From: Tribonema minus
Taxonomy: Eukaryota > Sar > Xanthophyceae > Tribonematales > Tribonemataceae
Direction: 5' to 3'
Assembly: GCA_017506865.1 (NCBI GenBank)
Contig: JAFCMP010000423.1
Location: forward strand, 682,001-746,000
DNA: 64,000 nucleotides
Shown here piece after piece: positions 1 through 59,300 of this stretch; positions within the stretch are counted from its first letter, which is position 1; each line of letters opens with the position of its first letter. Position numbers and translations under genes: made by a program. The notes under the pieces are model-generated. The model was not told the origin of the DNA. It worked only from the letters and a program-made list of their open reading frames with translations, and ran no database searches.

Positions 1-203
1 GTACTGCAAGCACTTGACGTATGCATTCAAGTTGATGGCTAACCACACCTTGTCACCTCGAGGTCTACAATTTTTTGGTTCGTTTCCATGCAATACAAAT
101 CCATCCCGTGCATGACTCAATCACATTTACTTCCTCCACGGAGTCCAATGTTGCCTACACATGTACTTGAAAAATACTTGAAGTGTGCGATACCCATACA
201 TAC

Positions 204-3200
204 CTTGATCATGTTGACCTCCTCCACGGAGTCCTGCCCAACGTCTCCACACATCAGGTTATTAGACAGATCGAAAGAGCAGCGCCATGGATTCCTGAAG
301 AGGGACACCACAAGCAAGAGAGCAGTGATTGAGTGATCGTGCCGATGCAAACGCACGCATTCCTGATTTCATAATACTAAAAAGGCAGGCAAGGCATTAA
401 TATGGAAGACATTAGTATGAAACGCACGCATTAATATGGAAGGCAAGATCTGGCCGTACGGTTGCGTTTTACCAAGAACAGTCGGTGGGCTGCCCAAAAC
501 AACAGTGCTCGCAGGTGCTAGGATCAAGCTTCCAGTGCAGAAGCATCGTTTGCCATTGTTTGCAAGCACACATTCAACAGGTGGTCGCGACTGTGTTTTT
601 TTCATGTTTTTTTCCAATGAGTTTCAATACGTCCCTTCCAGCAAGAAGCACCTGCGCAGCTTGGGACAGGTGGACTGCCGTATATGTAATTGAAATACGT
701 ACCTCAAGCCGTACGCGTACACCGTTCCTAGCGCAGTGACACCATTCACAACGGCCGTTGCGCCAACGAATGGGTTGTCGGTCGGGACAGAGTAGAAGGG
801 GCCAACTGCGATGGTGGCTTGCGCCTGCCAGATGCGCACGCGCAGCATCTTGCCGAGAGGGCTGGAGAGGTCCTGCGCGTTGCCGGTGTCGCCGTGCATG
901 TCGTCTGCAGCCAACCAAAGAGCACCGAGGCTGTGAAGTTGAGCTTGACGTATGAGAACTATGCATATGTAACGATAAACAAAGAAGTTGACCTTGAAGT
1001 ATGGTAACGCGTCATGAAACATGTCGGTATTGCTGTGCATATTGGCTGCACCCAGAGACGCGAGCAGGGTGTGAAGTTGAGGTTGAAGTATGGTTATGCA
1101 TTCAGGTTAAAGTATTGTAGGTATGCAAGTGGATGTGAACTGCGGACGAGCATCATCGTTTGCTGAGGGGGCGCAGGGAACTGGCGCGTTGATGGTGTTG
1201 CCGCGCATGTTGGCTGCACTAACCCTGACCCTAACCCTAACCCTGCCGTGTCAGCATCTGCACCGCCGCAACAACAAAAAAAGCGGAACATCAAGGCTGA
1301 ATGACAATGCACATGTACATTGCGCACGAGGCCATTGCGGAAGGGTAAGGCACAATGTAGCAAGTTCGAGTTCATTTCCATCTAACGATCACCCGGTTGC
1401 AACTTCAACTTCATTTCTGCCGCCGTGGTGAAGATTTGAGCGGTTCATATACTTCAGCTTTGAATTTGATTCAGGTGCTCTCAGGTGTTGTTCGGCCAAA
1501 AGTGGCAGCACTCATGCATGCACTCATGCCTAATCCTAGCTCTATACCTAAACCTAAGCCACAATGAACATCAACCAAAACAACAGCTGCTGAACTGCCC
1601 CCTGCTGAAACCAAGCAGCCTCAGACTGAACTTCAGCAGTCAACTTGAACGATACTCACTTGCGCCACCGCCGTCGCCGGTCGCAATGTAGAGGTCGTGG
1701 TATGCGGCCGCGGGGTCCAGATTGTTTTGAAAGCTGATCCAGCCCGCATTGTGGTTCTGCTCAGGCTGCATTGCCCAGCAATGGGGGGAGGGGGGGGAGG
1801 GGATTAGGGTAAGCGTAAGAATTGAGAGTCAGGGCTGGAGAGAGCAACAGCTGCCGTAGAAATGTAACCTTACGCGCATAGCGCAGTAGGATCAGGCGTA
1901 GTCTGAGGGTTTGGCTAATCCTAACCCCTCAATCTTCAACATGCACGACAGGCCAGCAACTACTTCCTGGTGCAGGTGTAGAAGTTGAAGTGAATACTTC
2001 AAGTCATGGCAGCGCTCACCTGCGGCCACGACATGAGCGTGCGCCGCGACATGCGCGTGAGATCCGCGTTGCCCGGCGCGTACGTGTAGTGTAGCGCACG
2101 ATGTTGATGAAAAACTTCAAGATGCAACTTCTAGTGATGGCAGCGTTCACCTGCGGCCACGACATGAGCGTGCGCCGCGACATGCGCGTGAGATCCCCTT
2201 TGCCCTTCACACACCAAAGCACGTCAGCAAACTCTTCACACAAAACCTTCACAGATACAGACTTCAAGTTGTGGCAGCGCTTACCTGCGGCCACGACATC
2301 AGCGTGCGGCGCGACATGCGCGTCAGATCCGTGTTGCCCGGCGCAAATGTGTAGCGCACGATGTTGGTAACCTGGTCCCTGTCCACAAAGTTGACGTAGA
2401 ACGCCTTGTTCACGGCAAAGTTGGGGTGGAAGGCGAGGCCCAGGAGCCCCATTTCGCCGCTGAACTGAACGACGTCTTGTATGTCCAGGACCTGGGTGAG
2501 CGCTGCTGTGGTGGGGCTGTCGACCATGGATGATATTGTGCCGAGCTGCGCAGACAAGGGGGGGGTAAGGGGTTTTGTGAGTTTTGACAGGCAGAGAGCT
2601 TAGCATATGTTGAGGTTGGGTGACGAGCCACGATTTGAGGTTGGGTGACAGTGTTCGCATCGCTGCGGTGAGGCTGTCGACCATGGAGAATATCGTGCCG
2701 AGCTGCAAAGACCACGAGGGGGGGATGTTTTTGGTCATTGACAGAGGCAGAGCTTAGCAGATGCTGAGGCTGGGTGACGTGCCACAATGTGAGGTTGGGT
2801 GACAGCGTCCGCATTGCTGTGGTGGGGCTGTCGATCATGTAGGATATCGTGCCGAGCTGCCCAGAAAAGGGGGGGGGGGGGGGAGGGGTGTTGTCATTGA
2901 CAGAGCAGAGCACAGCGCATGTGGAGGTTGGGTGACGTGCCACAAGTTGAGGTTGGGTGACAAAGTTCGCAGCGCGTTGCTCGTTCACTTCTCATTGGCT
3001 CGTTCGCTATGTGTGGGCGATGCCTGCTCTCGTGCATTGTGACAAGTTGAAGTTGGGTCCTCGCTGCGTATTGCGACGTGCTACCTTGACAGCGCTCGCA
3101 TCATATCGTACTCCTTGTTAACAATGCATGCTCTCGTGAGTTGTGGCTGCATGACCGCTGACTTGTCCACCTCTGGCACGTCGGTGGCGCTGTGCGCTGT

Positions 3201-6200
3201 CGGCAATGTGAACAACGTGAAGTATATACCTTCCAAGTATGCGAACTCCACAAAGACATAAAGTGCGCAGCGCACCAAATTCAACTTCAACCGAAGAGAC
3301 GCTTGCCGCCAACATCTTCAACGTCACGTGGCAGACTATCAACCAGGTATGCTAATCCTCATCGTAACCCTAAACCGTTACCCGAGCCACGACCTTACCC
3401 CTAACTCCTGCTATTGTGCACCAGAAACCTCACCATGACACCTGCAACTTCAACATTACCTGAGAAACTATCCTCCACTTTTTTTCCTTCCGGCACCAGC
3501 TTCATGTCCGCCATCCCTGGCCACTGATGGACTATCCACCTGGTGCAGTGATATGACCCCCTGACCCTTACTCTAGCCATAAACCTACTTCCAACTCTTC
3601 ACAGTGTGCACCAGCAATATACACATCCGACTTCAACCGGAAGCACGTTCCACCACAAAAAAACTTCAACATTACCTGAGAAACTATCCACCACATTTTC
3701 TCCCCCGGCACCAGCTTCATGTCCACCATCATACCCGGCCACTGGTTCGCCATGAGCGGAAACGGCGACTGGAGTGCACGCGCTGCCGTCACTACCTCCG
3801 GCGCCGGCGCTGCATTGGAGCAAAAGCAGCACGCAAGAGAGTCAGTATTGATGCTTGTTGGAGCATGTGGCTAGTTCCTTGCTTGCACGCCTTATCATTA
3901 CGGCAGTTACACTACCGGTACAGACGACGATACAATTCACTTCTACCAGCACACGCCTGGCATCGGTCTTGTGTTGCAGTGGTCACCTTGTTGCACACCT
4001 CTACCAGTGTGGAGCAACAGGCTAGTAAGCAGCAGTTCTCTACGTTGCATCAATACTGTTTCCAGGGCTGCTAGGTCAGGGCTTGGGTCCCATGGCGCAG
4101 GTACGGAAACAGTTCTCTACGTTGCATCGATACTGTTTCCAGGGCTGCTAGGTCAGGGCTTGGGTCCCATGGCGCAGGTACGGAAACACCTGTGCATGCT
4201 CTGAGTTGCACAGCAACATACAATGCCTGCTAACCCTCACCCTAACCCTAACCCTAACGTCTGCGCCTCAGTACACAAAGCGCAAGCAACATACGATCAG
4301 CGGGGCTGTGCATATGAAGCACGCACAGCAACAGCAGCAAACATTCGGGGGGGCACGCTTAACCCTGACCCTAACCCTAACCCTAACCCTAAAGCACGCC
4401 GGCAAATCAGAGAGCACTGTGGAGACAAGGAAATCACACCGCCGAAAAGCGACAACACCTGCTACTGCAATAGATAGCGCGCTGTACTAGACGAAGCAAC
4501 ATTGAGGTTGACACTGTTGAAGTAGATACAGAAACTGTTGAAGTATACCGCCGCCTGCTGCAGCAACAAATGGTGCACTGTAAAGTAGACCCAATAGCTG
4601 AAGTTGGTAACGTTGAAGTAGAACCTGAAACAGTTCAAGTACATCGCCTACCTGTAAACGGGTAGCAGTAGTACTCGTCGGGCAAGCGGCTGCGGCGCGC
4701 GCAAAAATCAGCGCGGAAGTACACTAGACGCTGACACTGTTGAATCATAGAGCCCACTGCTCAAGCACATGGCGCACTATTAAATGGATCCAACACTGGT
4801 GAAGCTGAGACTGTTTGTAGTGGATACTGACACAGTCGAAGTACACATTGCGCACCTGTAAATGGGTAGCAGTAGTACTCGTCCGGCACGCGGCTGCGGC
4901 GCTTGCAAAAGTCAGTGGGCAGCTGCAGCGATGCTCCACACTCCGTGTAAACCTGCCCGCAGAAGTCGTGGCACAGCATCATGCCGTTGCGTGGCCCCAG
5001 CGTCTGTAGCACAACAACAAGGAAAGTTTGAAGTTGAAGTTAGGGTTTGATGTTGAAGCTGATGTGTACATGCACAGGTTGCTTGAAGTCGTGGCACAGC
5101 ATCATGCCGTTGCGAGGCCCCAGCGTCTGCGGCGCGAACAACAGGTGAAGTTGAAAGTTGAGGTTGAATTTAGGGGGGTTTGGTGTTGGTGTTGGTGTCT
5201 GCACGCGCGCGGTTGCTTGCACTTCATGGTGCAGGGAATGTGGGGTAATTTAACCAGCACCAGCACAGGGTAGTTTGGTGTTAGCTGGGTTTGGGCACCA
5301 GCAATGCTCTCTGCTTCCACAAACTTCATGTTGAAGCACGTGTTACGCAGTTTTTTTAACCCTAACCCCAACCCTTATAGCCACTGTGCGGCGTGGGCCT
5401 ACAGCCGTTCTAAAGTGCCCTCTGTCTAACATGTCCATGACGTTAACATAGTGCAGGGTACATGCAGGGTGCACCTATCACAACTTCAACCTATCACAGC
5501 TTCGGCCTATCACAGCTTCGGCCTATCACAGCTTCGACCTGTCCATAGTTCAACCTTTCGCGAGTTCAACCGATTACTACCCACTTCGACACAGCGCAAT
5601 GACCGTACAAGCTGATGGCAAATGCACACACACCATCGCACAGACGCTTTCCGTCAAGTATTGTCTTGATACTTTGAAGCATGCATCACCTATGTACTAC
5701 ATGTTCATCAAGTGCTCAATTACTCTTCGTAAGGTGACAAAGACTCACCGTGCCCAGCTCCTGGAATAAATGTGCGGACCATGGCTGGCAACTGCAAGAA
5801 ACAAAGCCAGCACAAGAAGCAGAAGCAGTCAGAGTGGTATCCTTAGCTCACACTACAGGTTCAGAGCACAGTTCAGGTTTTTGGACTGGGGCTGACTCGA
5901 TAATTCATCACCTTCGGATCCCTAACTGCAACTGCAACAGATGGCACGTCACCTGCTCTGCACCTCACCAACCATGCGCTTTGGTCTGCGATGCACAGGT
6001 GCTCTCGGTGCTATGTGCATGCAATTCAAGCAGTCAGTTTTGTAACACAACTGCGAAGTGCCTGAGAAACTTCAAGAGCCTAACCAGCACAGCCGTAAAC
6101 CTCAACTGCGACACCACTGCACACCACTCAGGTGGGTAGATAGATGCATGCCGTGGCATAGAAATCCCGTTTGCGCGAAAGGCCCGCCGTGATCACAACT

Positions 6201-7448: not shown

Positions 7449-9191
7449 GGCGGTGGCTGGCGCGCTGCTGCTGTGCTCCTTGACTCAACGTTGCTCGTCT
7501 CGACTGCTGGATGTGTTCCTTAGGCCAAGCCGTTTCGCCTGGCGAAGAAAAACAAAAACACACCTTTGAGATGCAGCCATGCTTGCAGATGGATTTTAGA
7601 CTTACGTAGCAAGACAGGTGATGCAGGTGTTGTACGTCAGGCAGCAACAACGCAGCACAATAGAAGACCGCAAACGTAACTGACCAGGGCAACTTCAGCA
7701 CTTGCGCTCGCGCTCCTCTTCAGACACGGCACAAGACGGCAACTGCAACCGCTCCAGTCAGCTTCGCGTGGGCAGCGCTATCGCACGTCTGTGCTACTGT
7801 GCGGCATAGAAGAGCAGGCACAGAGGCGAGGCGGGAATTGCAGTCAGAACGGCAACTCACAGAATGCTTGCGTTGAAGTTGCACATTGTCGTTTCTTGTT
7901 CGCGATTCCTTCATGAGCACTACTAGTGGACGGTACTACTGTGTAGCTGAAGGCTACACGTGCCGCCATCCAACCGCAGCGGCCATGCGATGCAGATCGT
8001 TAAGTTCAGCGCAACATAGCACGGAAACATCGCTTGCAACTAATATTAGATTTGCGCCGTCGGCCACGGGTCACCCAGCGTGGATCAGATTGCTTTGAAA
8101 CTGAATATCTGTGCTGTACGCAGCCACGCCACGAATCTTCTGCTGTATACGACCAGCCAACTGCAGCAAGGCATTTGCTTTACCAGGCGCAAGCACGGTG
8201 GAACAGGGGTTCGATCTTACCTGTGCAGCTCTAAGCCTGCGTCCAGTGCAGCGAGTCTCCACGCGCTGGTGTGGCTGCAGCCTCACGCGCCCGGAGATGG
8301 TCTCAGGATCTGCTGCTGCGGTGTTTTCAGCAACTTACACACAGCTGTACGTGTCAGAGAGACCCAGGTTGAAGCTCTGTCTTGCAGTGTTTGCGCCCCA
8401 GGCACTTGCTAATGGGCAGCGGAACTGAACGGCACACCTTCAGCCACTCTTTCAAAGTTACCAGCACTGTGCCACCGGCAGCGCGCAACCACTGGCGTAA
8501 CGAAGCTGCGCGCTCAACTCCGATCCGAGCTCCGAGCGGCGGCGGTTATTTTTATTAGAAATAGTGTCATCTCCGGCACCCTTTCCGGGGTTCTTCATGT
8601 ATGCGCCAAGCGAAAATCAACAAGCACGAAGACTAGTTGAAAACATGATGCTGGCCAGGTGCCCTCACGCCCAGAGCCAGAGGCTCACCATACAACCTAC
8701 GTTAAGCCTAACACAAAGCGGGGGTGCCCAAAAATGGGAAGCGAACAGCATCAAGCCATGAGACTGAACAGCAAGGACGCATCAACACCATGCCATATTC
8801 AGATCGGCATGCAGTATATGTTATTCAACCATCTCAGCCAATCAGGAGTAACTTGTGAATGCAAAATGACTACATTTGAAGCACTTGTGAACCAGCATGC
8901 AGCCTCAACTCAGAAGGTGCTTGAGCATGATAACTTTGAACCAAGTGCTCCGTGGGTGTTTGGCGCATGTTGAGCGCGCTATTCATGCTCAAAATATAGC
9001 GCTTAAAATTGCGTAGCTCTCGCCATGTATGTATACATGGCAAAAATCAAAATCGTATAACCTTTGTGATGCCGCCATCATGATGTTCTTGAGCGTAGCA
9101 TGCAACGGTGCAGTGTGCTCAACAATTGCAATCCGATTATCAAATCCTCGTGAGCGTCTGCAAAACTCGCTGCAATGCCGGAATGCCCCCC
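7449..9191. other. Spacer between two minus-strand genes; no gene recognised
   Basis: This lies between the start of the HHIP-like gene and the stop of the hydrolase-CYTH gene. It should hold the promoter and 5' UTR of the former and the 3' UTR of the latter. ORFs up to about 145 codons occur on both strands but show no known motif, composition shift or splice-linked partner. I see no clear TATA box or polyadenylation signal. Confidence 0.5.
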
Positions 9192-12100: not shown

Positions 12101-15100
12101 CTTACTCGTCAAAGCCTGACTTGTTTCGCGCGCCATGCCTGCCGCCCAGGGTCACCCTAACCTCAACCCCCACTCTAACTCAACCCTCACCCTGACTCTA
12201 ACCCTGACCCTGACCCTAACCCTAACCCTACCTTCTGGACGTCCTCCTGCCGCAGCAGCTTCTTCTCCACCTCCTGAGCATCTGCCACGGCGTACTTCTT
12301 CTCTACTTCAATCGCCGCGCTGCTGCCGCCGCTGCCCTCTTCTAGCTGAAAGAACTCGCTTATTAGCGGCGGCAGCAGCGCCAGCGTCGCCGGCGTGTCC
12401 AGCCCGTGCTTGTCGTGCACAAATACGGCGCGCGTTAGGTCCGCTTGCTGCGTGCCATCGGTCATGAGCCCCTGCGTTGTCTGTACAGGGACGACCTAGG
12501 CAGGGGGGAAGGGGGGGGGGAGGGGGGGAAGGGGAGGGGGGGCAGGGGGGCATTCAATGTGCTCAGAACGCTCTCAAGGTAGCCGGAGTTGTAGAGCGCA
12601 TGTAGGCTTACTGCGTGCCATCGTTAATCCGCCCATGCGTCGTCTGTACCGGAACGACCTGGCGGTGGGGAGGGGTGAGGGGGTGGCCCCGGGGGGGGGG
12701 GGGGGGGGGGGGGCATTGAGCACGTGTGGAGCTTTCGCAAGACATCCCCGGAAACGACGCTGAACTGCGTTATTTCAGGCGCTGTGTGGACCTCTGAAGG
12801 AGCACTGCTCACCTTGTCACCTTGTCGTCTAGGCTGTGCATATCACTGCAAGGCGCTGGTAGGTAGGGTATGGCCGCAGCAATCACGGTACTGTACCTGC
12901 TCACAGTGTTCATAGATGAGAACGCAGAATTGCACGACGAAATGGAGTCGCTGAACCGGGTAATTCAAGCATGGTGTGCAGCTTTGGATGAGCACTGCCC
13001 AGTTTTGAGCGCTGCTTACCTAAAATTCTAGACCATGCATCATTTATTACAGCAGGGCAATGGTACGCAAGGTGCGGCGGAAGCTGCGGAGTTTCACTAC
13101 GGGACACTGGCAGGCAGGATATGGCGGCAGCAGTCACGGTACCTACTCACAACGTTCGTGTGTGGATCGGAACTTATATCACTTCGAATGAGCACTGCCT
13201 CATGTTGAGCGCTGCTTACCTCATCTTCCAAGCCATGCAGTATCACTGCGGGACACTGGTAAGCAGGGTATGGCGGCAGCAGCGCGCTCTCTGCCACAAA
13301 GGCGTAGGGCATGTTCACTATGAACCCATCTACGCGTTGCAGGCCTGCCACACATGAACACAGGCACAAACTTGAATATGAGTCACATGAAAGGAATTGG
13401 TACAATGTACAGCAATAGATCAATTGCAAGATGGGGGGGGGGGGTCATAACTTCTCTTCAAGTGAATTTTGCTGCCACAAAGGCGTAGGGCATGTTCACT
13501 ATGAACCCGTCTACGCGTTGCAGGCCTGCCCTACATGAACACGAGCACAAACATGAATATGAATCACCAATATGAACTGGCGTAGGGCATCTTCACTATG
13601 AACCCATCCACGCGCTGCAGGTCTGTCATGCATAGCAACAAGCACAGCATGAATATGAATACGAATCACCAACACGAGCTGGCGTATAGCGCTGCGTTGG
13701 GCAACACATTTTGCCCATAAGATAAGACAGTGTGGTGTGGGGGGGGGCGGGGGGCGATGGGGGGGTCACAACTTTACAACTCAAATACTTCTATCATTTC
13801 TGCCACGAAGACGTGGGGCATGTTCACTATGAACCCATCCATCCATGCGCTGCAGGCCTGCCGCGCGTGTACATGTGCATGAACCACCAGGAATGAATTG
13901 GCATGATCCACAGCAGTAGAGAATGGACCATTTGATGGGCGGGGGGAAGATTTCTGCCATGAGTCGCACACTCTGTGCCACTAAGGCGTAGGGAACGTTC
14001 ATGTTGCACGCACCTATGCGCGGCAAACCTGCCAACAGCAGTACAAGCAGCATGCAGACCACTATCACCGTCATAATATGGATTACACTACGCCAGACTT
14101 GGAACATCTGATGCTGGGAGTACGGGTATCAGCTACTGTCTAAGCACTTTCGTCCATACTACGCACCTTCAAAAGTTGGGTACGGATTACACTTGACTGC
14201 AGCATTGTGCTGTGCACTATGTAGCAAAGTGATACACACCACTTGAAGCACTTTGGGAGGAAAGAACTTCACAAACATCAAAGTTCACCTCTTACACCGT
14301 CTCGTTCCCACTCCGCCATTTCCTCAGGCGGCAGAAATTTTGAGGCACGTTCCCCAATGGAAAAAGCAGGGCAGAGCATAAAAATTCGGTCCACTGCCTC
14401 CGGGTGAAGCTCAGCGAACCTGCGCAGTGGTGTCCGCCCAGTGATACTAGGTCAATGTTCGCTTCTATCGCTTGTTCTTCATTGAGATGTAGTATGCACG
14501 TAGTAGCAACATACACGACCTGACCATGATATGCATGTACATTGCAACTAGACCACACGCTCTCTTCCTCTCTTATTGTCGACAGGCGAGCCATCGACGC
14601 ACATGAGAAGCCACCGACTGCTGCAGCCATCCCATCTGCTCAGTGTGATCTACTGTATATCTTCAACAGGTACAAGGAATGGTCTCGTTGAGTTGAGCGA
14701 TGCACGGCCAGCAGTGTTGTTGATGACGTGTCCTGGGGGTAGGTACGTACGCGTTATGACGTCATTAGCCCGGATCGTACATACTTACGGTAATGACGGC
14801 TAGGGTTTGACCTAAGTAGGGTGAGGGGGTTTAGGGCTTGGCACAAGTAGGGTTAGGAGGTTGGGGTTTAACCTAGCTAGGGTTTGAGGAAGTCGGGCCC
14901 GAAACGTTCTGCCGAGGGTCACTCGCTGCAGTTCTGCCAAGGGGCACGGGGCTTGCGCTCTGCTCTATTGCACTGTGGCGAGAGGCATCATGCCCAGGTC
15001 AGAGGCTAAGGTCGCTGTGCACAACGAGTGCTGCTGCTGCTGGCGGTCAGGCTCGCTGGGACGAGTGTTGCTGCTGCTGGCGATCAGGCTTGTGGCGCCG

Positions 15101-16074: not shown

Positions 16075-16220
16075 TTGCAAGGCTCCTCGTCTCCGACGCT
16101 AAACTTCAACAGAACCGCAACTTCAACTCTCTGGATCCTAGTGAAACCGTAAGTTCCTGACAAACAAAATCTCCGTTTGGCCTACTTTGGCACGTAGGGA
16201 GGGCAGTGAAGCCAAGCGCT
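16075..16220. promoter_or_regulatory. Short divergent intergenic region, putative bidirectional promoter
   Basis: Only 146 bp separate the two start codons, which face away from each other. The region must hold both 5' UTRs and core promoters unless upstream noncoding exons exist. No TATA box is visible. It holds two copies of the AACTTCAAC word that is common across the window. Confidence 0.45.
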
Positions 16221-34200: not shown

Positions 34201-34250
34201 GCCTGCAGCATTGGCAGCAGCGCCAGCGGCGGCGACGGCAGTGGCGGTGG

Positions 34251-34281
<31 letters not shown>

Positions 34282-34493
34282 GGCGGCGGCGGTGATGGCG
34301 TCAGCAACAGTGACCCTGGTGCTGCCGCGCGGGTGCTGCGCATCTCTGTTGAATCGCGGCCCGGCTCGCAAGAGAGGAGCGGACAGCAGACGCAGCAGCG
34401 GCAGCAGCAGCAGCAGCAGCAGCGCAGCTCGACAGAGTCGCGCCCCGGCTCGCAGGAGCGCTGGCAGCAGCAGCAGCAGCAGCAACAGCCGCC

Positions 34494-34532
<39 letters not shown>

Positions 34533-40500: not shown

Positions 40501-43500
40501 CCCCCTTCCTGGGTTTGCTTCGTTCAGCAGGTTCTCAGCCAGTTGAGTCGAGTAAGGGCTAGGGTGGCGGATAGGATTAGGGTTAAAGTTCACTTGCCAG
40601 GTGGAAGCTGATGAACCGTCTTTCTTCCCCTCCCACCACAACAGGCAAGGGTCAGGGGGTGGCTGGTGAGGCGTGCCGCAGCCGCAGCAGCGCTCGCCTA
40701 CCAAAATCTGAGCGCTGCTGCACTACAGCGCGTGGCAAGGGGCTGGCTCGGCAGGCGCAGAGCACGCCGCGTCAAGGCGGAGAGCGAGAGCTCACGATCT
40801 AGGTGCGTTTCGGTGCAGTGTGCTGGAACAGAAGGCTCTCATAGGGCTGCTGTTAACTAGGTCTTGCAGCGTCATCACTGGCTACAGTTGTGCAGAGTCA
40901 CAGCATATGCGTGGCAAGGGGCTGGCTCGGCAGGCGCAGAGCACGCCGCGTTAAGGCGGAGAGCGAGCGCTCACGATCTAGGTGCGTTTCGGTACAGTGT
41001 GTTGAAATAGCAAGGCTCCCATAGGGCTGCTGTTAATTAGGTCATGCAGGGTCATGACTGGCTACAGGTGTGCAGTGCAGGGTCACAACATATTCTTCAG
41101 ATAGTTCTGGACCTCCCCGCATTTTCTAAGTCTCTCTCCAGAGCACATTCTTTCTCAGGGCATGCGGCGATTGCCCATCTACATCACTACACACTCTCAG
41201 CAGATGATTCCAAGCAGACGATTCCGAGCATGAGAGCTGCCTCTGATCCTGCATGCTGACCGCAGCACTTCACCGCCAGCACTGCTGCCACATCCGCAGG
41301 CACCGATTCGTAATCACTGCGCTTGCCGCTTACACTGCAGGCTAGACAAGACGTGGGCCGCGACAGAGATACAGCGGTGTTGAATTTGACCCTAAAAGAG
41401 CATGATAGAGTTTACTCAATATGTACTATTAGTGCGCGTCTGTACATGCAGCCCTTTGCCCGCACAGCGCCTCTGCAGATGCAGCTTTTGCTACGTTTGC
41501 AGATACCAGTATGAATTCACAACGCTTGCCGCTAATGCCGCAGTCTAGACAAAGCGTGGGCTGCGACAGAGATACAGCGGTGCGCGCGCAGCAGACAGGC
41601 GCGGCGCTTCACCCGCGCCCGTAGAGTTGAAGTTGGCCTCAGCAGCCGCCTGGGCCGCGTTGCCGACAGGTTTGTGGCCGACGGGATGGTGGATGTGTGG
41701 GGCATGCTGAAAGAGGTGAGTTGGGATACATACCCGTCATTTGTAGGAGTAGAGGTGAAGTTGGATGCAGCAGCTGAACGAGGTGAGATGGGGTACATAC
41801 TGTCATTCGTAGGAGTAGAGTTGAAGTTGAACGCAGCAGGCTGGGGGCCGCTTGCCGGACAGGTTTGTGGCCGATGGGATGGTGGACGTATGGGATATGC
41901 TAAAAGAGCCTGAGGTGAGTTGGGATACATACCCGTCATTTGTAGGAGTAGAGTTGAAGTTGGACGCAGCAGCCGTCTGTAGAGGGTCGCTGACAGAGCT
42001 GTAGCCAACGGGATGGTGCATGTCTAGGGTATGCTGAAAGAGGTGAGTCGGGATACCTACCTGTTCTTGGTAAGAGCAGAGTTGAAGTTGCATGCAGCAG
42101 CTGCCGTTTCGTAGGGTGGCCGACAGGTTCGTATACAATGGGATGGTGGACGTCCTAGGGTATGCTGCAAGAAGACATATACCTGTCCTTTGTACAAGCA
42201 AAGTTGAAGTTGGACGCAGCAGCCGCCTGTGGTGGGTCCCTGACAGAGTGGTGGCCGACGGGATGGGGGTCGTCTGGGGTATTCTTTGACTCACATGCTG
42301 CGCAGGACGTTGCTGTGCAATATAAAGCTGTTGGCGCCCTGCAAAGTTGAAGTTGGCGGGTATGGCTTGACTGCAGGCATACACAGACGTTTTGCCTCTC
42401 TCGAAAGCTTTCAGCATCACAAAACTGTGAAAGAGTGAGCATTGAAAGAGCATCTAGTGACACCCCCCCCCCACGTGCACCGCACATTGCAGATTGACGG
42501 CGACTACCGCCGCTACGAAGCCGCGCTAGCCGCACAATCGGAGGACGAGCAATTCATGGCATCCACCTTTGTCAAGGAAGTGGTCAAGCTGCGCGAGCAG
42601 CAACTTCAACAAGCCAGCGCCAGTTACACTGCTGCCGTCGACTCTCGGGCAAGAGAGAGCGAAGCCAGGTACGCATCCAACCATTCATGAATGTTCACTC
42701 ATGAATCATTCTAGATCGAGTCACTTACTGATGCTTTTTTTGGTGTCACGAGCAGCTGCGTGACGCCAGCGCCGCCTCCTCTGCTGCCACTGACCTCCCG
42801 GCAATTGACAAGGAACCGAGGTACACAATGTACAACGCTAGTCGTGAGTGTCAACTGCCGCGAGTAACAATGTGCCATTCTCAAGCGTTCATGAATAATC
42901 CAAAGGTTGTTGATTGATATACGCGAGCAGCAGCAGCATGCCGGCAGCACCAGCTGCACCACGGTTGTTGACTCTCGGGAGAGGGAGAGTGCAGTCAGGT
43001 ACGTATTTCATTATTCACAACTGAGCAAGATCCATACGCTCGTGGATTAGTCGATGGGAGGAGCTGCAAACCACGCAAAGCTTCAAGTGACGGTTTCAGC
43101 GCTATGTCATGGCATAATTCGACGTAGGAGCATCTTGATCATGCGTCGGTTGTTGGCATAAGAGTACACTTTGGTACTTCTCCACTCACATTACCGGCAA
43201 TATCGTCACCATTCTCATCATGACCCTGGCCCCTAACTGTACCCCCGTCTGCACAGACGTCAAAACCGCAGCAGAAGCACAAGCCCCAACAGAGCCATGA
43301 GCAGGAGCCCGAAGCGGCTACGATCGCTTGCGCCGGGCACTGCACCTGCTTCAACAGCCCACCCATCTCAGCGTCTCAGTCAGGTGCGAGTTCAAGCTAA
43401 AGTTCACTAACAGTAACCACTCCAATCAGAGTCTATCATATACAGCTGCGATGGCTCCTGCGCTTCGCTGCGCCAGCTCAGCCAGCTCAGTGCCTGCGTC

Positions 43501-46500
43501 AGGTGTGCTTTCAAGCGCACTACGTAGCGGCATCTCCTTGCACACTGGACAACTGCGCCAAGGCAAGTTGATACGACTTGTATTGGGCAAACTGTTGAAG
43601 TTGAAGTTGAGATGCAAGATTGATTGAAAGCGAATCAAAAGATCGTAGAGCTCTAGGTGACAACGGATGGTTAGCCGCAGGTGCCTTCCACCAACAACCG
43701 TGGTCGCCGCTGCTGCAGCAGTTGGCCACGAGTCAAACATTAGATATTTGATCTCGCCACGCCGGATACCGTGCCTGCTGCGCCAGCTCAGCCAGCTCAG
43801 ACAGGTGTGATTCGTACATGTAGAGGCTGTGTGACCGACCCTAACTGTAACCCTAACCCTAATCTCCTCTCACACTTGAAGAGCATGCCAAGACGCCATC
43901 ATGGAATCCAGAGGTTGCGGTCGACATGCTGTTGAAGTTGTCGCACCCTGCAGCAGTCCACCCAGCTCAGCCTATGAGTCAATTGACGTTGCAGGAACCA
44001 GTATGTATGTATGCACAAAGTGCGTACATGTTGTAAAGGCAGCACGCTCAATCTCCTGTCGAGCTGGCCGAGACTTTCTAGATGTATAAGGTTGACGTGC
44101 CAAGCTCTAGCTGGCTACTGACATCCCCGCCACACACACCATTGTACTCTATCTACTTCCGCTCAAGGGACGGAGGTTCTGGGAAGTATGCAAGGCATGC
44201 AACTCTTACGCTTATGCGACGTGTGTGGTCACAGAGCATTTGCAAACTCAGTGGAAGCGAGTGTTACCTTCAGTATGAAAAACGAATCAAAAAGATCGTT
44301 GAGCTCTAGGTGACAAGGGATGATTAGTTGCAAGTGCCTTCCACAAATAACCGTGGTTGCCGCTGCTGCAGTCATTGGCCACGAGTCAAACAGTGCCATC
44401 ATAACCACAGTAGACAAAAATACTTCTGTGTGCAAGCTTTTAGCGTTTGAGGTATGGGTGATCAGTATGGACAGGTCTCACGTGTTCGGTAGGCCAGCTC
44501 CAGCCGGCAGCCCAACACAGAGGTTCAGCAGCTAGTGACAGCGCTCTTGAATGCGCGTAGTGCAGAAGGTGATGAGCATTTTTTGAACCAGTCCATGCGG
44601 CGACATGGAGGCTCCAGGTTGTTTAGCACGAGCTATCCGTAGCGTTCTCCTTTCCTCACCTACGAGCAGTAGCATAGCAGGCGAAGCGCGGGTCAGGAGT
44701 CTTGTCTGACCCCCTTGCTTCGCCACGCTAGAGGGTAAGCCTCCTAGCTCCAGCTGCCCAGTTTCCTTTCCGTCCCGGGTCGTCCGTCGTAGTGTTAAAA
44801 AAGAAATCTATGCCATACGTAATAGGTTCATTTTCTTCGACTTATTGACAGTACAAGCCAGCTGCAGCAGATGGGCCTCCAGGAGGACTTGAACCCTGAC
44901 CCTAACCCTAGAACCCTAACCCTAACCGCCGTACTCAGTGGCTCTAAGCCTAGATCAGAGCCCAGGCTACTGTTCTGACGAGTTTGGGGCGCAACCAGCT
45001 CAGGGTTAGGGTTTGAGTCAAAATTAAAGTGAGGGTTAGGGTTGCACAGTGCACCCACAATGCTCGATCGCCTCCGTGCCCAACTGCAGGCGTCGCTGAC
45101 AACGCTGGGGACTCGGTCCTCGCAGCAGCGATGCGCCACCAGCATTGGCGCGGCCACCGCCTCTGGGGGGCAGTGCTCAACCAGCATCAGGTACGAACAT
45201 GGCGACGTCATTTAGAAGTGATTGGCAATGCGCATTGAGACACTTTCAAGGTGTTCACAACGCCACATGTAGATTCGAATTGCAAGCTGGGCATCCACCA
45301 TCTAGGCTTTTTTGCGCCCTGAGCGAGAAGTGAATCAAAGGACGAAAAGCTTCTGAGCTTGCTTCTGACAGTATCATGCACTACCGTACCTCTGGCCCGT
45401 GCATGTAATTGGGAATGCAGTATTTCAGGATCACTCTTGATGTGGTCGCTGCAAGCAGCGCTCGCTGCATGCGGTGCACATTTCTGGCGTCAGACACCAG
45501 GCGGGTCACGGACCCCGCACAGCTTCATCCAGTTGGCTCAGTACATTTGCATACACTTTGAAGTACGAACACATACACACACGCTCTGTGTATGTGGACT
45601 CTGCAGTTTTTTGAAGTATGACTGCAATATAAATTCTATCCCTATATTGTACCGGACAAGTTACAATACAACAAAGGGTCTTTGTCACTATTGCGGTCAG
45701 ACCGACAAAAATGGACCAGAATTGATCAGTCATGCAGCAGTTGCAGACAGCCATGAGTTCATTACCCGTACAACGCTCAAGCAACGAAACAACTGAGCGG
45801 AAACGAGGGGAAGGGAGGGGGATGATATCCAATACCCCCCCCCCCCCCCCCCCAACGGCTGCTTACAAAGGGTCTGACCCCCCTCTCCTATGGGGCACCC
45901 ATTTGCCTACCTGCGAGTGCTGCACTACCTGGTGCACTCACGTAAGCCTTGCCCTTGCCCGCATGTCTTCGCAGCTCTGGCACCAGCTTTTATGCAGAGA
46001 CGAGCACTCACACCATAGCACATCTAGGGGCACAGCCTTGGGAGCCGATGTGGGACAAGGTAAAATACATGTGGTCTGCAGTCTGTGCATGTGCTTGATG
46101 TCAGCAAGCTACACGCAGAACTTGTTGAACCATACACGTGGCGATCTCACAGATACAGCATCACAGGTGTACTCTTTATTCATCATCTCCATCACTGCCA
46201 CTGCCACTTCATGTACAGGAGAGTAAATCACGTCACCTTGACCACGCCGCAAGCACGCGCTTTGTGAGTGCATCGGCGCTCACATGTAACTTCAATGCGA
46301 GTGTCAGACCTGTGCTCTTTCAGGACCTATTGTAGCGCAGAGCCCCCAAGAATGCCGGCTGCTCAGCATTCAAAATTACAGGGTAGAATAATTCAACTTC
46401 AATCTTGAAGTGTCAGACTGCTGCGCAGCATCCACACGCAGGTGCAATTCATCATTTGATTCCAACTTTGAAACACCGATTGAGCACACATCTATACAAG

Positions 46501-49500
46501 GCAACATTGACTCTTGAATCATCATTATCTTTGTGCGCTGCTGCTACCTCGTCATGTGCAGAAGAGGCACCCTTGTAAGCTCGAAACGCACCCACTTTGT
46601 GGGGCCTAGAACTCATGCTTGGTAACTTCAGCACAGACTTTGTTCAAGTAATATCTGCAACATGGCCACTTGGCGCTCTATCCGCAGAAACACAAAAGGC
46701 ACATCACCTCAAACACGCCGCAAGCACGGCCCGCCACCTCGACCACGCTGCAAGCACGCGCTCTGTGGGCGCCTTAGCGCTCAATCGCATTTCATTTCTA
46801 TAGTGTTGAAGTTATGGTCATGGCGCTTTCGTCCACAGGAGCGGAAGGCACGTGACCTCGACCGCCCCGCGCATCGGCGCTCACGATGTAACTTCGTGTT
46901 GAAGTGATGGTCATGCCGCTTTTGTGCGCAGGAGCGCAAGGCCCGTCACCTCGACCACGCTGCGAGCACGCGCTTTGCGGGCGCATCGGCGCTCACGGTG
47001 CAACTTCATTTCACGACTATTGAAATAATGGCCATGCTTTTGTCCACAGGAGCGCAAGGCACGTCACCTCGACCACGCCGCGAGCACGCGCTTTGCGGGC
47101 GCGTCGGCGCTGCGCGACATTCCCGGGGGCCTCCACGACTGCACGGGGAGGCTGTTGCGCGCAGCCTTGCTGCGCAGCTTTGTCCCGAGTACCATGCCGG
47201 CGGGGGTAAGTGGAATGTTGTGCCCCCACTTTGTTCCGAGCACCATGCCGGCGGGGGTAAGTGGAATGTTGTGCCCCCCCACGACGGCCAAATGAACGAA
47301 TGCAATATTTGGTGTGTACTGTAATGGGTGAGTTCCTGACCAACACTGAAAGAACACTCGAGTGCTTCAACATACTTCGGAGCATGTGATTTAGAATGCT
47401 GTTCAGGAAATTGTACGCCCACACTTGGGTGACAGCAGCGCATTCGCTGCGCAACGGCAATGGGAAAGGTTTGCTGCTCAAGCTGCATGCGGCAGAAGGC
47501 TGATGCTCATGTTCGGCGCGATGACAGGCAGAGAATGCCAACAGGAATATCGGAAGTGGTTTGAATGTATCTCACACATCCTTACAACCTCAACTGCTCC
47601 TGCTTCTCTCCCGCGGCGTTGAACAGACCAGCGCAGAAATCGCATTCAGGCACTACCTGGCCCTGCCTCCGTCGCTGGCAAAGGTACGAGGTGTACGTGC
47701 ATTTGTTAGGGTAAGGTTAAGGTAAGAGTTACAATCAGATCAGAACTAACTTTGAAAAAACGGTCGGGGTTACTTTCAGGAATAGTGTTAACGTTAGACT
47801 AGGGTTGGCTTCAGGCTTAGAGGTAATGTCAGCCCAAAGTACAAGTGTGGAAGCACATGCGCGTGCATCTGTTGTGGCACCTCTAAGTAGGGTTAGGGTC
47901 AGCGCCCCACAGCGCAAGAAGGCAGTTGATGATGCTTGGTTCCGAAGTGGGTGCGTTGGAGTGTACATCATGTCAAAGAACTACCAGTCCTCCCCACCTT
48001 ACTGGCGCTGGCTTCAGAGCTAAGGCCTGTGTGAGACGCGCAACTCATGCCATTATTGCGTGGTCACTCCGGATACTTCAACTTTGACATTATGGGCTGA
48101 CACGCACCCTGCGCTCTGCGTCTTGACGAAACAATGTAGGGTTAGGGTTAGGGTACGGTTTCACGGTGCCACACACACACTTACTTAGTGCCAGCCCGTA
48201 CACCGTACAACAACGTGCCCTTCAAAGCTCAGCTGTGCGCTGATGATCTGCAATGTACTTGTGATTACCACAGTGCAGGGCAACTGCTTTTCATGATGCC
48301 ACACAAAGTACGTGGTGCCACCTTTACTTTGCCCGTACACCAGTGCAGATTAAGCAGGAGCAGCTACACCTCTCTGACAATCGTCCACAGCAATTGATCA
48401 CAGCTGCAGACTGTCACCGGAAATGGGCACTGACGATTTCAATTCCTTCTGCAAATGCAGATCAAGCACGAGCAGGATGCAGCAAAGGCCGCGCGGCCGC
48501 ACGCAGCGGCGCTGAGCGCTGCTGGCTTTCACCTCATCGGCCATCTAATGCCCATTAGCAAGATGGCACGCGTCATGCAGGAGGTGAGATGCCTACCCCC
48601 TCCCCCTCCCCATGCATGCACACTGAGGGACAAATCTGTGCACCACCGTGACGCCTGCCCAACCCTTGCCACTGTATCCAGCCCAACCGCAACTCTAGCC
48701 CTAAAACTCGATGGTTCAGGCTCATTACCATGCTTAGAGATAGGAGATAGGGTTATGCGCAAGAACAGCCTGAACACTGCTGCACAGCCAGGTTGCCCCA
48801 TAGCACTGCGCGCATGGTGTGCCGAAGAGCTGATCTGTCCTCAACCTTGGGGGCGACAAGTGCTGGAATTGATTAATTATGCCCTGAACGCCATGTGCCC
48901 GGAGCTGCAACTGCTGCCAGCTCTCCACCACGGCTCAGTGCATACAGCCGGGCTTCTCAAACACACCTGTTCTGAGCAAGGTGTCATTGAACAGTTTGCA
49001 ATGCAACCATGGACGTCTGTTTTGAGCAAGGTGTAATTCAACAGCTTGCAATGCAAGAAGCACGGGCATTCAACTAGTCCAGGGAAGTCAAGTTTTACAT
49101 ATCACACACGACATGGCATATGAACTGTGCCAACAGCCTCTGGCACATGCACGCACAGCACACCCAGCAAAGCCCAAGCTCTTAGGCCACTCGTTGAACT
49201 GCCCCATGACTGCGAATTTCGTCTGTCTGCATGCAGCAGCGGGCACCTGCCTGACCCTAAACCTCACCCTTACACCCTACACCCTTCTCCTAACCCTAGT
49301 ACCAATCTTGCCGGTGATACTGAACCTAGCTCTAGTCGTAAACACGCCTCCAACCCTGACTGCAGCTGGGGATCCCCGCAGCTGCAATCCTCGCCGCTCA
49401 GGACCTGGCGGAGCTGATGTGACCCCCAGCCTCACTCTCAACCCTAACCTTCAAGCTAACCTAACCCTAATCCTAATCACACGTCTACCAATGAGCACAG

Positions 49501-50342
49501 CTGGGGTTCCTCGCAGCCGCGATGGTCGCTGCGCGGACCTGATCTGACCCTACATTCAACCCTAGCCTTCAGGCTAACCCCAACCCTAATCACACCTGTA
49601 CCCTGACTGCAGCTGGGGGTCCCCGCAGCCGCAATCCTCGCCGCTCAGGACCTGGCAGAAGAGCTGCGCCGCGCGCCAGTGCCTGTGAGGCGCCTGCGGG
49701 CCAGAGCGTTCACGCCACCACGGCGATCAGCGCCGGAAGCGTCGAGCGTACAGCAGTGCTTGGCAGGGACGGCTGTAGCCAATGGCGATGCTCAACGGTA
49801 CGTCCAGTTGCGCAAAGGTTGTGTGTGGTCGATGCAGTTTGCTTGCGGCAATGTTGGACAGACGCCATGCACCTTGTTGTCGCGAGCTCTCGCGCCTACT
49901 TGGGTAGGGCGCAAGGGCCATGTGACACGCCGTGCACAATGATGCTAGCCCAGCTTTGTGAAATGTCTCCGCTTCCTGTGATGCTGTGCAGCGGCAGTAC
50001 CACTCAAGCAATATCGCACGCGCATCGGTTCTTCTCTTCTGCGACGACACTGCAGCAGTGCTCATTGTACAAGCGGCAGCAACAGTGCTCAGCATGCCAC
50101 TAGCGATCAAACCAGCACTGCCCGTGGCAGCAGCAGCAGCAGCAGCACTCGACACTGCAGCAGCAGCACTCAGTGGGCCATGCACGGTCGCTGCGGAGCG
50201 TACGTTGTCAGCGCTCTGAGGCAGAGCCCTTTGATCAGCGGGCAACCAGCAGCGTGTGACCGCGAAGCCAACTTCAACTTGAAGATGCATGGTGCAAGGG
50301 AGAGTGCCGCCAGCTCAAATGGGCGGCAACAGCAGCGGCAGC

Positions 50343-50379
<37 letters not shown>

Positions 50380-56300: not shown

Positions 56301-59300
56301 ATCAAGGATGTTGAGCATTCTGCCTGCTTGCTGCTTAGGTGAGCAACTTCAACATGACATAGAGGATAGGTACCTCTCACTTACAGTGAGTTCATGCGGT
56401 GCCCTTGGAGCTACAATAGCAGGAGTGCTGCAAGGCAGACCAGCGCAGCATGGCAGCAGCGCTGGGAGAGTTGAAGTAGAGCTATCCAGCACAGATAGAG
56501 GCAAGAGGCAAGTGCGGCACAGCAGTAGCGCTGGGAGAGTTGGAGTTACCCAGCGCACATAGAGGCAGGAGGAGAACATGACGAGTGACCTTCTAAGGTC
56601 ATAGGGATAGCCAAGATTTAAGTTGCGACTGGTTGAAGTAAGAGGTCAGGATGACGTGTCGGGGTCGAAACTCGATCAGTACTTGAACTTGATGCAGCTG
56701 TCAGCAAGCCCTCAATGCCACACCACGCATACAGGGCTGTGGCCGTTGAAAGGCACACCAGATTGCCCCTGCACTTCCCGCATACACTAAAATCACACAA
56801 AGACGGATCAGCCGATGTGTGTCCGCCACTCTGTGTTTGCATTCTGTCATTGCCTACAGGCACAAGGCCATGACCCGCGCCAAAGAGGGCGCCCTCTGGC
56901 TGGGCAGAGAGGGCCTCTGGCCGTGGGAGTCTCAGGAAGACGCACTGAGCGGATGGCGGCTACCGCCCGCCGTGCAGAGCGACCTGAGACACGTCATTGA
57001 CCGCGCACGGGGCTACGCCGCCGCCTGTGAAGCTGAAGTTGAAGATACAGTTGAAGTTGAAGTTGGAGATGAAGTCAGCGCTTCTGGGCAGGAAGCATCG
57101 CTGGCGCTGGTGGAGTACAGGGGCAGAGGGGATGGTGATGCTTTGTACCAAGACGATCAGGACGCAACCTCATTGGCAGACTCCCAACTTGTGAGTGCCG
57201 TGCCGTACTGTGGTCCTGTTTGCTCTGAGTGATTGCAACAAGTTATGATGCGCATTGTCAGGCCGCAGAGGTTGCAACCTAGATGTGCACATGCTGATCA
57301 GGCAAGAAAGATTCATATATGCATATGCCTCAGCTTAGAGAAAGCCCCATGGCGACTCTTACTGGTGGCATCAATCCTGATATTATTGATGCATATGCGC
57401 AGCCACGCTGTACTTCATTTTTTCCCGCTTGAGGGACGGAACCCCTATCACCGCACGTTACAACACATATACCCTTAAGCTCGTGCATGCTTTTTCTGCA
57501 GGGATATCGCCACCCTTTACTACTGTAGTTGTACACGTCACAGGCATCAACAATGCACGTCACGTCCCCCGGGTAACAATGGCGCAAGAAGTATGACCGT
57601 CGAGGAGATGCACTGCCTGTGTGCCGATATCCAACACACAACGAGCCCCTGTCATGGTTTCTGCATAGAATATTATGTCTGAGGTGCTGGCCATGATGAC
57701 AGTCGCTCATGCTGAGACACATGCAGCAATTAACTGCCAGTGGCTCAACTAACCAGCTGTACAGTAAACTGCCAGCCGCCGTTTACTTGCCAAGTCACTG
57801 ATGCGCTTGTGTATTGGGTGTGCATTGGATACGCAATACAGTTTCACACCTTCTCATGGTTCTCTGTGCGCATCTGTACCCGCAGACACTGTGCAGCAGC
57901 TCCTCTGGCTCCCAGTTCTGCCTGCCGCACCGCACCGTCTTACGCTTGGTAAGTCGTACTGAGCAATTATGGTAAAACCACAATGAGTGCTGTTGACTTG
58001 CAGCACTGTACTGTCTTGCGCTTGGGAAGTCATACTTGCAAATACGTTCTTCAAGTAGTTGCAGTACTTGAGACTCATTCATGGAGTGCATGCTGAGTAC
58101 TGATGAAACTGGGCACTGCACTAGTGCACTGCTGTCATGCGCTGGGTCTGCAATAGCCTTGAATATATTCCCAGAAGTGTAAGGTACTTCGAGAATGCCG
58201 ATCGGCTGCTTGTGCAACTGCCATGCCATTGCATTCTGCGCTCCATGCGTACTACTGTCAATTCTTCCATCTACCATCATGTATGCTGGACGCCGTTGAA
58301 GTGTCTGGTAAACGCCAGCTGTCAACACCCGCTTCAGCATCCAGAAGACGCGCTTGGCTTCACTAGATCTTGTCATCAGAGCAAGCACTTGCAGCCGCTT
58401 GAGGGGCACTGACGGACTGTACCCATGCGCGAAATGGAGAGGCTGGGATTAGTATTTGGCTCCATACAGATCTACGCAGCCGCCAGTGAGGCTTGCTCAG
58501 CAGCAAGTCCTGAAAATCAGTGCTAATGCCTCAGTGACTTTTGTGTGGCCGACCGCGTGAGCTCAGGGGGGGGGGGGAAGCCATTTGGCGATGTCGCTTA
58601 GGAGTGATCATCAAATGCGCATGATACACTTCAAAGTGTTCACAAGATGCATGTAAATTCTGGCGGCAAGCTGAAAATCTACCATCTGGGCTTTTTTGGG
58701 CCCTAAACAAGAACTAAATAAAGGTACGCTCAGCCATGCCAGGTACGGTGAGGCCTCCAGGTCCTGGCGGTTCAAACCGCCCCTGTCAGTGCCAGAGCCC
58801 ACTTCAGTGCTCTCAACCGCATCTGCAATTTGATGAATGCAGGTCCCAAAGTCCAAGGACGACAGGCCCGCTGATCAGCCACGCCAGGGTACTGGGAGGC
58901 CGAGCACTGCCACGGGGGCAGTGTCGCTGCCGCCATTGGCGCAGCACAATGCGAGATGCGCACAGAGCATCACACCTCCACTCAGTGAACCCCAGGTACG
59001 CGCACTACTACTTGCTGCTGGGAGCATCGATAACATTCTGAAGTATGCTACGTAGTCGTTACTGCGGCCCATCAAGCACTGCAGAGTATGCGTTAAGTAC
59101 TACTTGAAGTACTTCACAATTTGACATGTTGAATCATGTGTGCATCACACATAAGTACTGAAGTTGCTGCATTTGAAGCACATCTGGTGGCGCAATTGCA
59201 GGCATGCGCACATATGCTTGAAAATATATGTGAGTATACTCTAGGTAGGTGCCGCAGCGTGCTCACTCTCAACCTAACATGTTGTGCTGGCTGTCACTCG

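Follow-up and report, generated by a model that had tools for sequence, protein, structure and literature searches.

Exon sequence duplicated beside its source is familiar from tandem exon duplication and mutually exclusive exons, and natural insertions in rice were reportedly described by Vaughn and Bennetzen in 2014. In a review, rice insertions of 10–1000 bp are presented as duplications, whether fully tandem, partly tandem or non-tandem, of sequence lying up to 200 bp from a break (PMC7407515), and CST/Pol alpha-primase tandem duplications are known (PMC8355091). In a potato gene, an intron was created by a tandem duplication across an intron–exon boundary (PMC4974935).

Here, we describe decayed copies of exon edges in introns of Tribonema minus, analysed in a stretch of 64,000 nucleotides (the window) and in genes elsewhere in the genome. 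Like the break-repair duplications (PMC7407515, PMC8355091), the copies are direct, tens to hundreds of bp long, and arranged head to tail or displaced by a few hundred bp. Unlike those fresh insertions, the copies here are mostly old and diverged, and local direct repeats make up 15–19% of the sampled bases. The resemblance to tandem-duplication intron gain lies in a duplication that crosses an intron–exon boundary and carries splice signals; however, intron gain makes a new intron, whereas here the copy, apparently unused, is added to an intron already present. A descent of the introns themselves from tandemly duplicated exon segments, which would make the echoes birthmarks, has a precedent in the potato case (PMC4974935), but is very improbable, as each copy carries intron sequence and a splice site from an intron already in place and is confined to that intron. 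Tandem and mutually exclusive exons differ in that only part of an exon and one splice site are copied here.

Introner elements, which the preliminary description of this DNA had named as a near idea, share the association with introns; they are related elements in many genes (PMC3443670), whereas the copies here appear local and gene-specific in one genome search. That search, with one 221-bp boundary stretch, returned five non-self matches, two being its own neighbours and three lying on other contigs at 72–87% identity. The dispersed near-identical copies of introners were not seen with this single query, which speaks against introner insertion. A search of titles and abstracts found no description of such a pattern, which does not by itself prove its absence.

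Intronic copies of exon edges

Self-comparison of the window, proposed earlier as a check, gave 96 direct and 1 inverted repeat pairs with a separation below 1 kb, vs. 0 pairs in one first-order Markov shuffle. Two other 100-kb stretches gave 112 direct vs. 5 inverted and 130 direct vs. 12 inverted local pairs. Bases within local direct repeats amount to 18% of the window and to 15% and 19% of the other two stretches, every region sampled thus carrying local direct duplications, and the boundary-copy pattern was also met elsewhere in the 158-Mb genome. All ten regions in which decayed exon-edge copies had been listed overlap at least one direct pair; the observation of intronic exon-edge copies is real. 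Segmental duplication, the other near idea of the preliminary description, is correct. Differences between copies are partly allele-like (synonymous-rich exons, gapped introns), as they would be if diverged haplotypes had been joined in tandem during assembly. However, such an artefact deserves almost no credence, given up to seven copies per boundary at variable spacings, the copying of only exon parts at the boundaries examined, and a similar duplication load in all three sampled regions. The transition/transversion ratio among aligned local duplicates, of interest for a possible repeat-targeted mutation process, is 1.50. The window had no Rfam match, and Pfam scans of two of the three forward frames of 40.5–51.5 kb and of the three reverse frames of 1–8.9 kb gave 0 families.

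One gene of the window, W1 (20–26.9 kb), has seven exons that join into a single open frame of 465 codons with a provisional 5′ end (Table 1). An intronic copy comprising exon end, splice site and some intron is present at 9 of its 12 boundaries, and the intron-side end of the matching block is often no more than 25 bp from the splice site. The predicted stitched protein had no homologue among the 8000 candidates sharing most words with it. A homologue search with a window ORF that we take to be WW-like from its motif found none either.

Table 1. Exons of W1, their intronic copies and other duplicated arrays, in window positions
Feature	Positions	Strand	Remarks
Three-copy tandem array, period ~131	1996–2339	.	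extends into predicted exon 2285–2545 (minus strand)
Most alike duplicated pair of the window at the sensitivity used	4033–4188	.	77-bp unit, 98.7%; within predicted intron
W1 exon	19982–20110	+	donor at 20111; frame open through all seven exons
Copy, end of exon 19982–20110 and donor	20193–20275	+	functional stretch 20037–20119, 86%
Copy, acceptor and exon start	20872–20928	+	functional 21011–21067, 81%
W1 exon	21023–21181	+	open frame
Three copies, exon end and donor	21320–21778	+	21320–21380, 21636–21674, 21731–21778; functional 21144–21204
Two copies, acceptor and exon start	22534–22747	+	22534–22587, 22610–22747; functional 22759–22889
W1 exon	22837–22982	+	open frame
Copy, exon end and donor	23121–23191	+	functional 22920–22990, 93%; extra exon-end copy 23007–23077
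Copy, acceptor and exon start	23946–24022	+	functional 24109–24188, 85%
W1 exon	24130–24277	+	open frame
Two copies, exon end and donor	24480–24588	+	24480–24520 (95%), 24546–24588 (88%); functional 24251–24293
Copy, acceptor and exon start	24701–24779	+	functional 24925–25011
W1 exon	24969–25084	+	GC-type donor GCAAGT; open frame
Two copies, acceptor and exon start	25205–25526	+	25205–25333, 25445–25526; functional 25525–25651
W1 exon	25570–25816	+	open frame
W1 last exon	26446–26898	+	stop codon at end; open frame
Copies flanking a predicted exon on both sides	29469–30497	+	predicted exon 29905–30168
Copy array around predicted exon end and donor	41597–42290	+	predicted exon 41646–41715; spacings 67–577 bp
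Five copies, acceptor and exon start	46205–47111	+	last is part of predicted exon 47050–47205
51-bp tandem duplication over predicted donor	47178–47278	+	96%
Three copies, acceptor and exon start	49323–49659	+	telomere-like spacers

The frequency of such copies was determined in eight chaperonin genes (CCT and Cpn60 subunits), which were not chosen for repeats and whose exons were set by homology. Before counting, manual curation removed two small artefact introns (L029, L030) and any boundary adjoining a stretch for which reference sequence was lacking, and one of the 88 boundaries kept, the first donor of L028 with its 12-bp exon, is doubtful. At the BLAST threshold, an intronic copy was found at 20 of these 88 boundaries and in 17 of 44 introns, and three of the eight genes had none, so that the earlier wording, nearly every intron, was too strong. 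Boundary copies are absent from CCT alpha, the sole gene matched to a transcript-derived protein. A lower threshold gave copies at 33 of 100 boundaries (one copy at 14, two at 10, three at 5 and four to seven at 4). These counts do not fit minisatellites, in which a short unit recurs in many similar copies.

At all 29 copy-bearing boundaries of W1 and the chaperonin genes, the copies are intronic, lying downstream of donors and upstream of acceptors, exactly as had been described. Several copies are called exons by a simple gene finder trained here, which would suit alternative exons or the normal exons of a repeat protein. Such an explanation is highly unlikely, since CCT and Cpn60 are conserved, non-repeat proteins whose frames match known chains when the copies are left out, and since each copy spans one boundary and holds only part of an exon. 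The copies at chaperonin boundaries hold no known exon sequence.

The suggested lengthening of introns is matched by an association among the 44 chaperonin introns: those with copies have a median length of 779 bp vs. 411 bp for those without (p = 7e-5), and the duplicated fraction grows with intron length (rho 0.65, n = 44).

Placement relative to exon boundaries

Boundary-spanning pairs are more numerous than under a simple placement null, with 43 vs. 18.4 expected in the chaperonins and 15 vs. 4.8 in W1, and at no less than 80% identity 14 chaperonin boundaries are matched vs. 6.9 under the null (p = 0.005). Unmasked coverage in the ab initio exon set (55 predicted exons of at least 90 bp, selected for strong coding score and not by homology, as the gene finder over-calls exons in introns, e.g., 20 vs. 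8 in L029) also peaks at the boundary, with 0.295 vs. 0.15–0.24 from 40 bp inward. These excesses, together with the short intronic reach of the W1 blocks, are what would be expected of a process aimed at boundaries, in which exon ends and splice sites are copied into the adjacent intron (e.g., by a transcription- or spliceosome-linked route or by an RNA-templated one).

The strength of this case depends on the uniform simulation chosen for comparison. The observed boundary rates exceed a uniform rate of 0.137 (p = 0.019 and 0.029, pooled 0.0015), but show no excess over 0.177 (p = 0.21 and 0.30, pooled 0.13), and the uniform rate varies with settings over 0.045–0.137, 0.177–0.186, 0.25–0.35 and 0.37–0.45. 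Relative to nearby intron coverage, the chaperonin boundary rate is 0.80, compared with simulated values of 0.52–0.59 for constant-rate uniform, 0.66–0.80 for burst and 0.97–1.18 for targeted placement; the simulation parameters were hand-picked, and one burst set overshoots the duplication coverage.

In a masked-exon control, duplications were detected from intron sequence alone and their coverage was followed against boundary distance; the 55 predicted exons were also used in this control. Masked coverage drops toward the boundary, with a near/far ratio of 0.47 (95% 0.29–0.67) over 190 pooled boundaries, and of 0.46 (88 boundaries) and 0.49 (102 boundaries) in the separate sets. Uniform-placement simulations gave 0.40–0.43, 0.37–0.47 and 0.47–0.51 by setting, whereas boundary-targeted simulations gave 0.93 and 1.21, and the probability of a masked ratio of at least 0.93 is below 0.01. 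Boundary-spanning counts exceed the simple null, but masked coverage falls toward the boundary, much as in uniform and unlike targeted simulations, and a boundary-specific process is not supported. In addition, intron-only clusters are about as frequent in the chaperonins as boundary-spanning ones (18 vs. 20). The sample speaks against strong boundary targeting, and we regard boundary-aimed copying as unlikely, although a mild boundary preference is possible. On the basis of hand-tuned simulations, we attribute the excess over the simple null to exon constraint, which would prolong detectability, and to the age of the duplications.

Divergence, age and junctions

Between exon and copy, exon-derived DNA diverges by 8.3% and intron-derived DNA by 19.8%, the former being lower in 20 of 21 pairs. 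Divergence between copies in exon-derived DNA is 13.9%, above that between exon and copy, which is expected if constraint acts on the exon alone. Boundaries would then be conspicuous because constraint on an exon lets its copy be identified for a longer time (8% vs. 20% divergence).

The exon–copy differences show a third-position excess (32/26/86 by codon position), and 81 changes are synonymous and 63 nonsynonymous, i.e., 56% synonymous vs. 27% expected. Simulations yielded a weaker ratio of about 1:1:1.5 and more gaps than the 5 openings in 1703 columns observed in exon-derived parts. Blind duplication with constraint explains the third-position excess only partly. The synonymous excess, the few gaps and the third-position richness of changes unique to one copy (47/42/79) would be in keeping with copies that exchange with the exon by gene conversion or re-copying, or with some copies that are or were translated, which would place part of them under coding-like constraint. 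However, copy–copy differences in exon-derived DNA (18/16/28, with 1.07 gap openings per 100 columns) are nearer neutral, third positions are GC-rich (510 of 568 are G or C) and may mutate faster, and the set is small at 29 boundaries; exchange or translation therefore has only an outside chance of being correct. Decidedly doubtful, too, is a reading in which copies and the functional exon edge trade sequence, or copies see occasional use, making introns a reservoir for rewriting exon edges, which would account both for the third-position excess and for exon-derived parts having so few gaps.

The graded divergence had been taken as the mark of a continuous process. However, among 124 complete head-to-tail pairs, 92 are less than 80% identical and only 6 reach 90% or more (pairs of the same array are not independent), and duplication activity looks older rather than continuous. 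The 77-bp pair whose members differ at one position, cited earlier as the least diverged end of this range, does exist, but it is intron-internal in the gene model, away from predicted exon edges. Complete tandem units make up 124 of 368 pairs overall and 6 of 48 pairs at 90% identity or above, vs. 29–84% in simulations; most pairs in this upper class are short blocks rather than complete tandem units. At nine near-perfect junctions, overlaps range from −12 to +9 bp and a clear microhomology pattern is absent.

A probable position-blind origin and its meaning

Small local duplications that are blind to position and filtered by selection are, in our judgement, the likely explanation of the boundary copies. 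Short segments of roughly 40–400 bp would be duplicated locally and directly, head to tail or slightly displaced, with placement independent of exon edges. Break repair is probably the source, and staggered breaks or nicks may have been filled in and their ends joined, sometimes with insertion of templated sequence; the activity was presumably greater in the past. Duplications that damage coding sequence would be lost, whereas those over one exon edge could persist because splicing stays with the outer, exon-side splice site, leaving a second exon end and splice site stranded in the intron, where the splicing machinery would ignore them. The copies would be found on the intron side only because selection spares just those when duplications land at random. 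As the functional exon is constrained, a stranded copy should remain recognisable longer than an intron-internal duplication, which would make boundaries seem favoured.

Thus, a general mutational process, together with splicing and selection, can mimic copying directed at exon edges, and masking exons before profiling duplications by boundary distance offers a simple control. Should so high a share of duplicated DNA turn out to be uncommon in eukaryotes, the genome studied here would be well suited to measuring intron growth and the way in which duplicate splice sites are ignored.

Local duplications and boundary copies

The window runs from base 682001 to base 746000 of contig C423; the assembly comprises 158 Mb in 554 contigs. 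Self-BLAST of the window returned 117 direct and 21 inverted repeat pairs, of which 96 direct and 1 inverted lie less than 1 kb apart, and all ten regions in which the preliminary description had seen intronic echoes of exon ends overlap a direct pair. Two further 100-kb stretches showed 112 and 130 direct versus 5 and 12 inverted pairs at <1 kb. Local direct duplications hold 18% of the bases of the window and 15% and 19% of those two 100-kb stretches; one Markov shuffle of the window yielded zero local direct pairs. The sampled stretches carry genes, since kinesin exons are present in L018, one sampled 10-kb locus.

Because the window gene had been the preliminary description's own pick, eight chaperonin genes found by Pfam (CCT eta, alpha, theta, gamma, delta and beta, and two Cpn60) were taken as a test set, with exons defined by spliced alignment to solved-structure chains or a transcript protein and 44 introns kept, one with a doubtful donor. 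The CCT alpha protein from stitched exons shares 80–83% identity with proteins of Ectocarpus, Vaucheria and Chrysoparadoxa and 96% with the EukProt transcript-derived protein; the source is taken as a PX-clade stramenopile alga, perhaps a yellow-green one. The spliced model agrees with the transcript protein at 512 of the 513 residues; its single mismatch falls in a doubtful 12-bp first exon.

A local duplication whose partner copy lacks known exon sequence covers 20 of the 88 chaperonin boundaries, and 17 of the 44 introns have a boundary copy, i.e., a direct copy of the exon end with its splice site; in the window gene, 9 of 12 boundaries have one. A further set of boundaries came from 55 strong ab initio exons of the window and the two samples; duplications span 27 of its 102 boundaries, with an intronic copy in 22. 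The exon-end copy pattern is real and was seen in each sampled region. Copies occur at 0/36 boundaries in CCT alpha, eta and beta versus 19/46 in CCT theta, gamma, delta and one Cpn60 (p = 2e-6, for a grouping made post hoc from the data). By locus, the same contrast sets L027, L028 and L032 against L029, L030, L031 and L034, and it holds even between two genes of contig C279.

Chaperonin introns with boundary copies have a median length of 779 bp versus 411 bp without (n = 44), and longer introns tend to have a larger duplicated fraction (rho 0.65, n = 44). This fits the earlier proposal that introns grow by duplication, though copies also find more room in a long intron. The GT/GC or AG dinucleotide is kept in 26 of 29 copies, whereas by our arithmetic about 24 are expected by chance at 8–10% divergence; its retention is therefore no sign of splicing use. 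GC-start introns make up 3 of 50 training introns (window position 25085, L031, L032).

Degenerate telomere-type tracts (CCCTAA/TTAGGG) occupy 3.3% of the window; two 100-kb samples have 0.9% and 1.8%, and the shuffles (one per region) 0.0%. Such hexamers number 320 per 34.6 kb of introns and 5 per 12.9 kb of exons in the gene set; in some cases a tract forms the spacer between exon-end copies, and CCCTAA arrays stand at 2 of 6 sampled contig ends (contig starts L035 and L039). In contrast to the local duplications, copies of the dispersed family D14 are scattered across 40 kb. The 179-bp tandem duplication at 40730–41093 may be an IQ-type repeat.

Other repeats in the window
Feature	Position	Length	Remark
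Telomere-type tracts, examples	4230-4392, 12152-12230, 20129-20192, 49424-49606		
Dispersed family D14	21438, 45288, 58672, 61842	~56 bp	64-73% like first copy
Tandem duplication	40730-41093	179 bp	89%; self-BLAST

Placement relative to exon boundaries

At 29 boundaries, 20 from the chaperonins and 9 from the window gene, identity to the functional exon is 91.5% in the exon-derived parts of the copies, against 80.0% for the intron-derived parts; the exon part is the less diverged in 20 of the 21 pairs with enough of both (8.3% versus 19.8%), and copies differ from one another by 13.9% in exon-derived DNA. This agrees with a pairing in which the exon is frozen and the copy evolves neutrally, and boundary copies therefore stay recognisable for longer.

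Counting boundary-spanning duplications against random positions, as the preliminary description had suggested, gave an excess, with 43 pairs observed in the chaperonins versus 18.4 under random placement in the same genes, and 15 versus 4.8 in the window gene. Covered chaperonin boundaries numbered 14 versus 6.9 expected at ≥80% identity (p = 0.005) and 20 versus 16.1 with no identity cut (p = 0.1). Such a simple excess is biased by the unequal decay of exons and introns. The unmasked boundary rate is also the weaker test because it varies with simulated duplication load (0.045–0.137 or 0.177–0.186 by setting, and higher in further simulations, including past-burst ones; every simulation was hand-tuned). 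Both observed rates, 20/88 and 22/102, exceed 0.137 significantly (p = 0.019 and 0.029; pooled 0.0015), but not 0.177 (p = 0.21 and 0.30; pooled 0.13). Relative to nearby intron coverage, the chaperonin boundary rate is 0.80, versus 0.52–0.59 in constant-rate uniform, 0.66–0.80 in past-burst and 0.97–1.18 in targeted simulations. A past burst, which reaches the observed value, thus closes the gap with blind placement; duplications may also mildly prefer boundaries.

Masking the exons and profiling duplication coverage by boundary distance removes the exon-conservation bias. Over bins of 0–20, 20–50, 50–100, 100–200, 200–300 and 300–600 bp, coverage was 0.10, 0.14, 0.16, 0.23, 0.21 and 0.25 in the chaperonins and 0.08, 0.12, 0.11, 0.15, 0.16 and 0.15 in the ab initio set, giving 0–20/100–300 bp ratios of 0.46 and 0.49, respectively (pooled 0.47, bootstrap 0.29–0.67). 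Forward simulations of uniform duplication plus selection gave 0.40–0.43 and about 0.47–0.51, and past-burst simulations 0.37–0.47, whereas aiming 50% or 80% of duplications at boundaries gave 0.93 and 1.21. The masked data are therefore as expected under blind placement and argue against strong boundary targeting.

Kind, age and origin of the copies

The 311 pairs at ≥90% identity are spaced 77 to 528 bp apart (10–90% quantiles). Complete tandem pairs number 59, 33, 15, 11, 2 and 4 in the 65–75, 75–80, 80–85, 85–90, 90–95 and 95–100% identity bins, pairs from the same array not being independent. They account for 59 of 91 pairs at 65–75%, but only 6 of 48 at ≥90%, where short blocks prevail; simulated pure tandem duplication, with 29–84% complete at ≥90%, did not reproduce this. 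These short blocks may be short near-tandem templated copies, or they may be later-fragmented tandem units of which exon-derived blocks are the recognisable remnant. A review describes local duplications, tandem as well as non-tandem, among insertions in rice (PMC7407515). Since the complete tandem pairs are mainly old, unlike the age profile of a constant-rate simulation, duplication activity probably fell over time, at odds with the continuous process envisaged earlier.

Exon-versus-copy differences at codon positions 1, 2 and 3 number 32, 26 and 86 (81 synonymous, 63 nonsynonymous; expected synonymous 27%), versus about 1:1:1.5 in simulations; changes unique to a single copy number 47, 42 and 79. 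Third positions are G or C at 510 of 568 sites (90%) in exon parts having copies (L029–L031, L033, L034 and the window gene), the overall G+C of the samples being 54–59%. Gap openings amount to 5 per 1703 columns in exon-derived parts versus 0.6–1.3 per 100 simulated, and to 5 per 468 columns between copies in exon-derived DNA. The GC-rich third positions may mutate faster, and repeated copying from an evolving exon contributes synonymous differences; sequence exchange with the exon or some past coding use of the copies would be a less likely explanation of the third-position excess beyond simulation and of the fewer gaps.

With a masked ratio as in blind placement, the present evidence does not support a new boundary-directed system. 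Most likely, the pattern reflects small local duplications, a selection filter and exon conservation: ordinary duplications landing without regard to exon edges would produce the copies, selection would then filter the duplications, and exon conservation would make boundary copies conspicuous.
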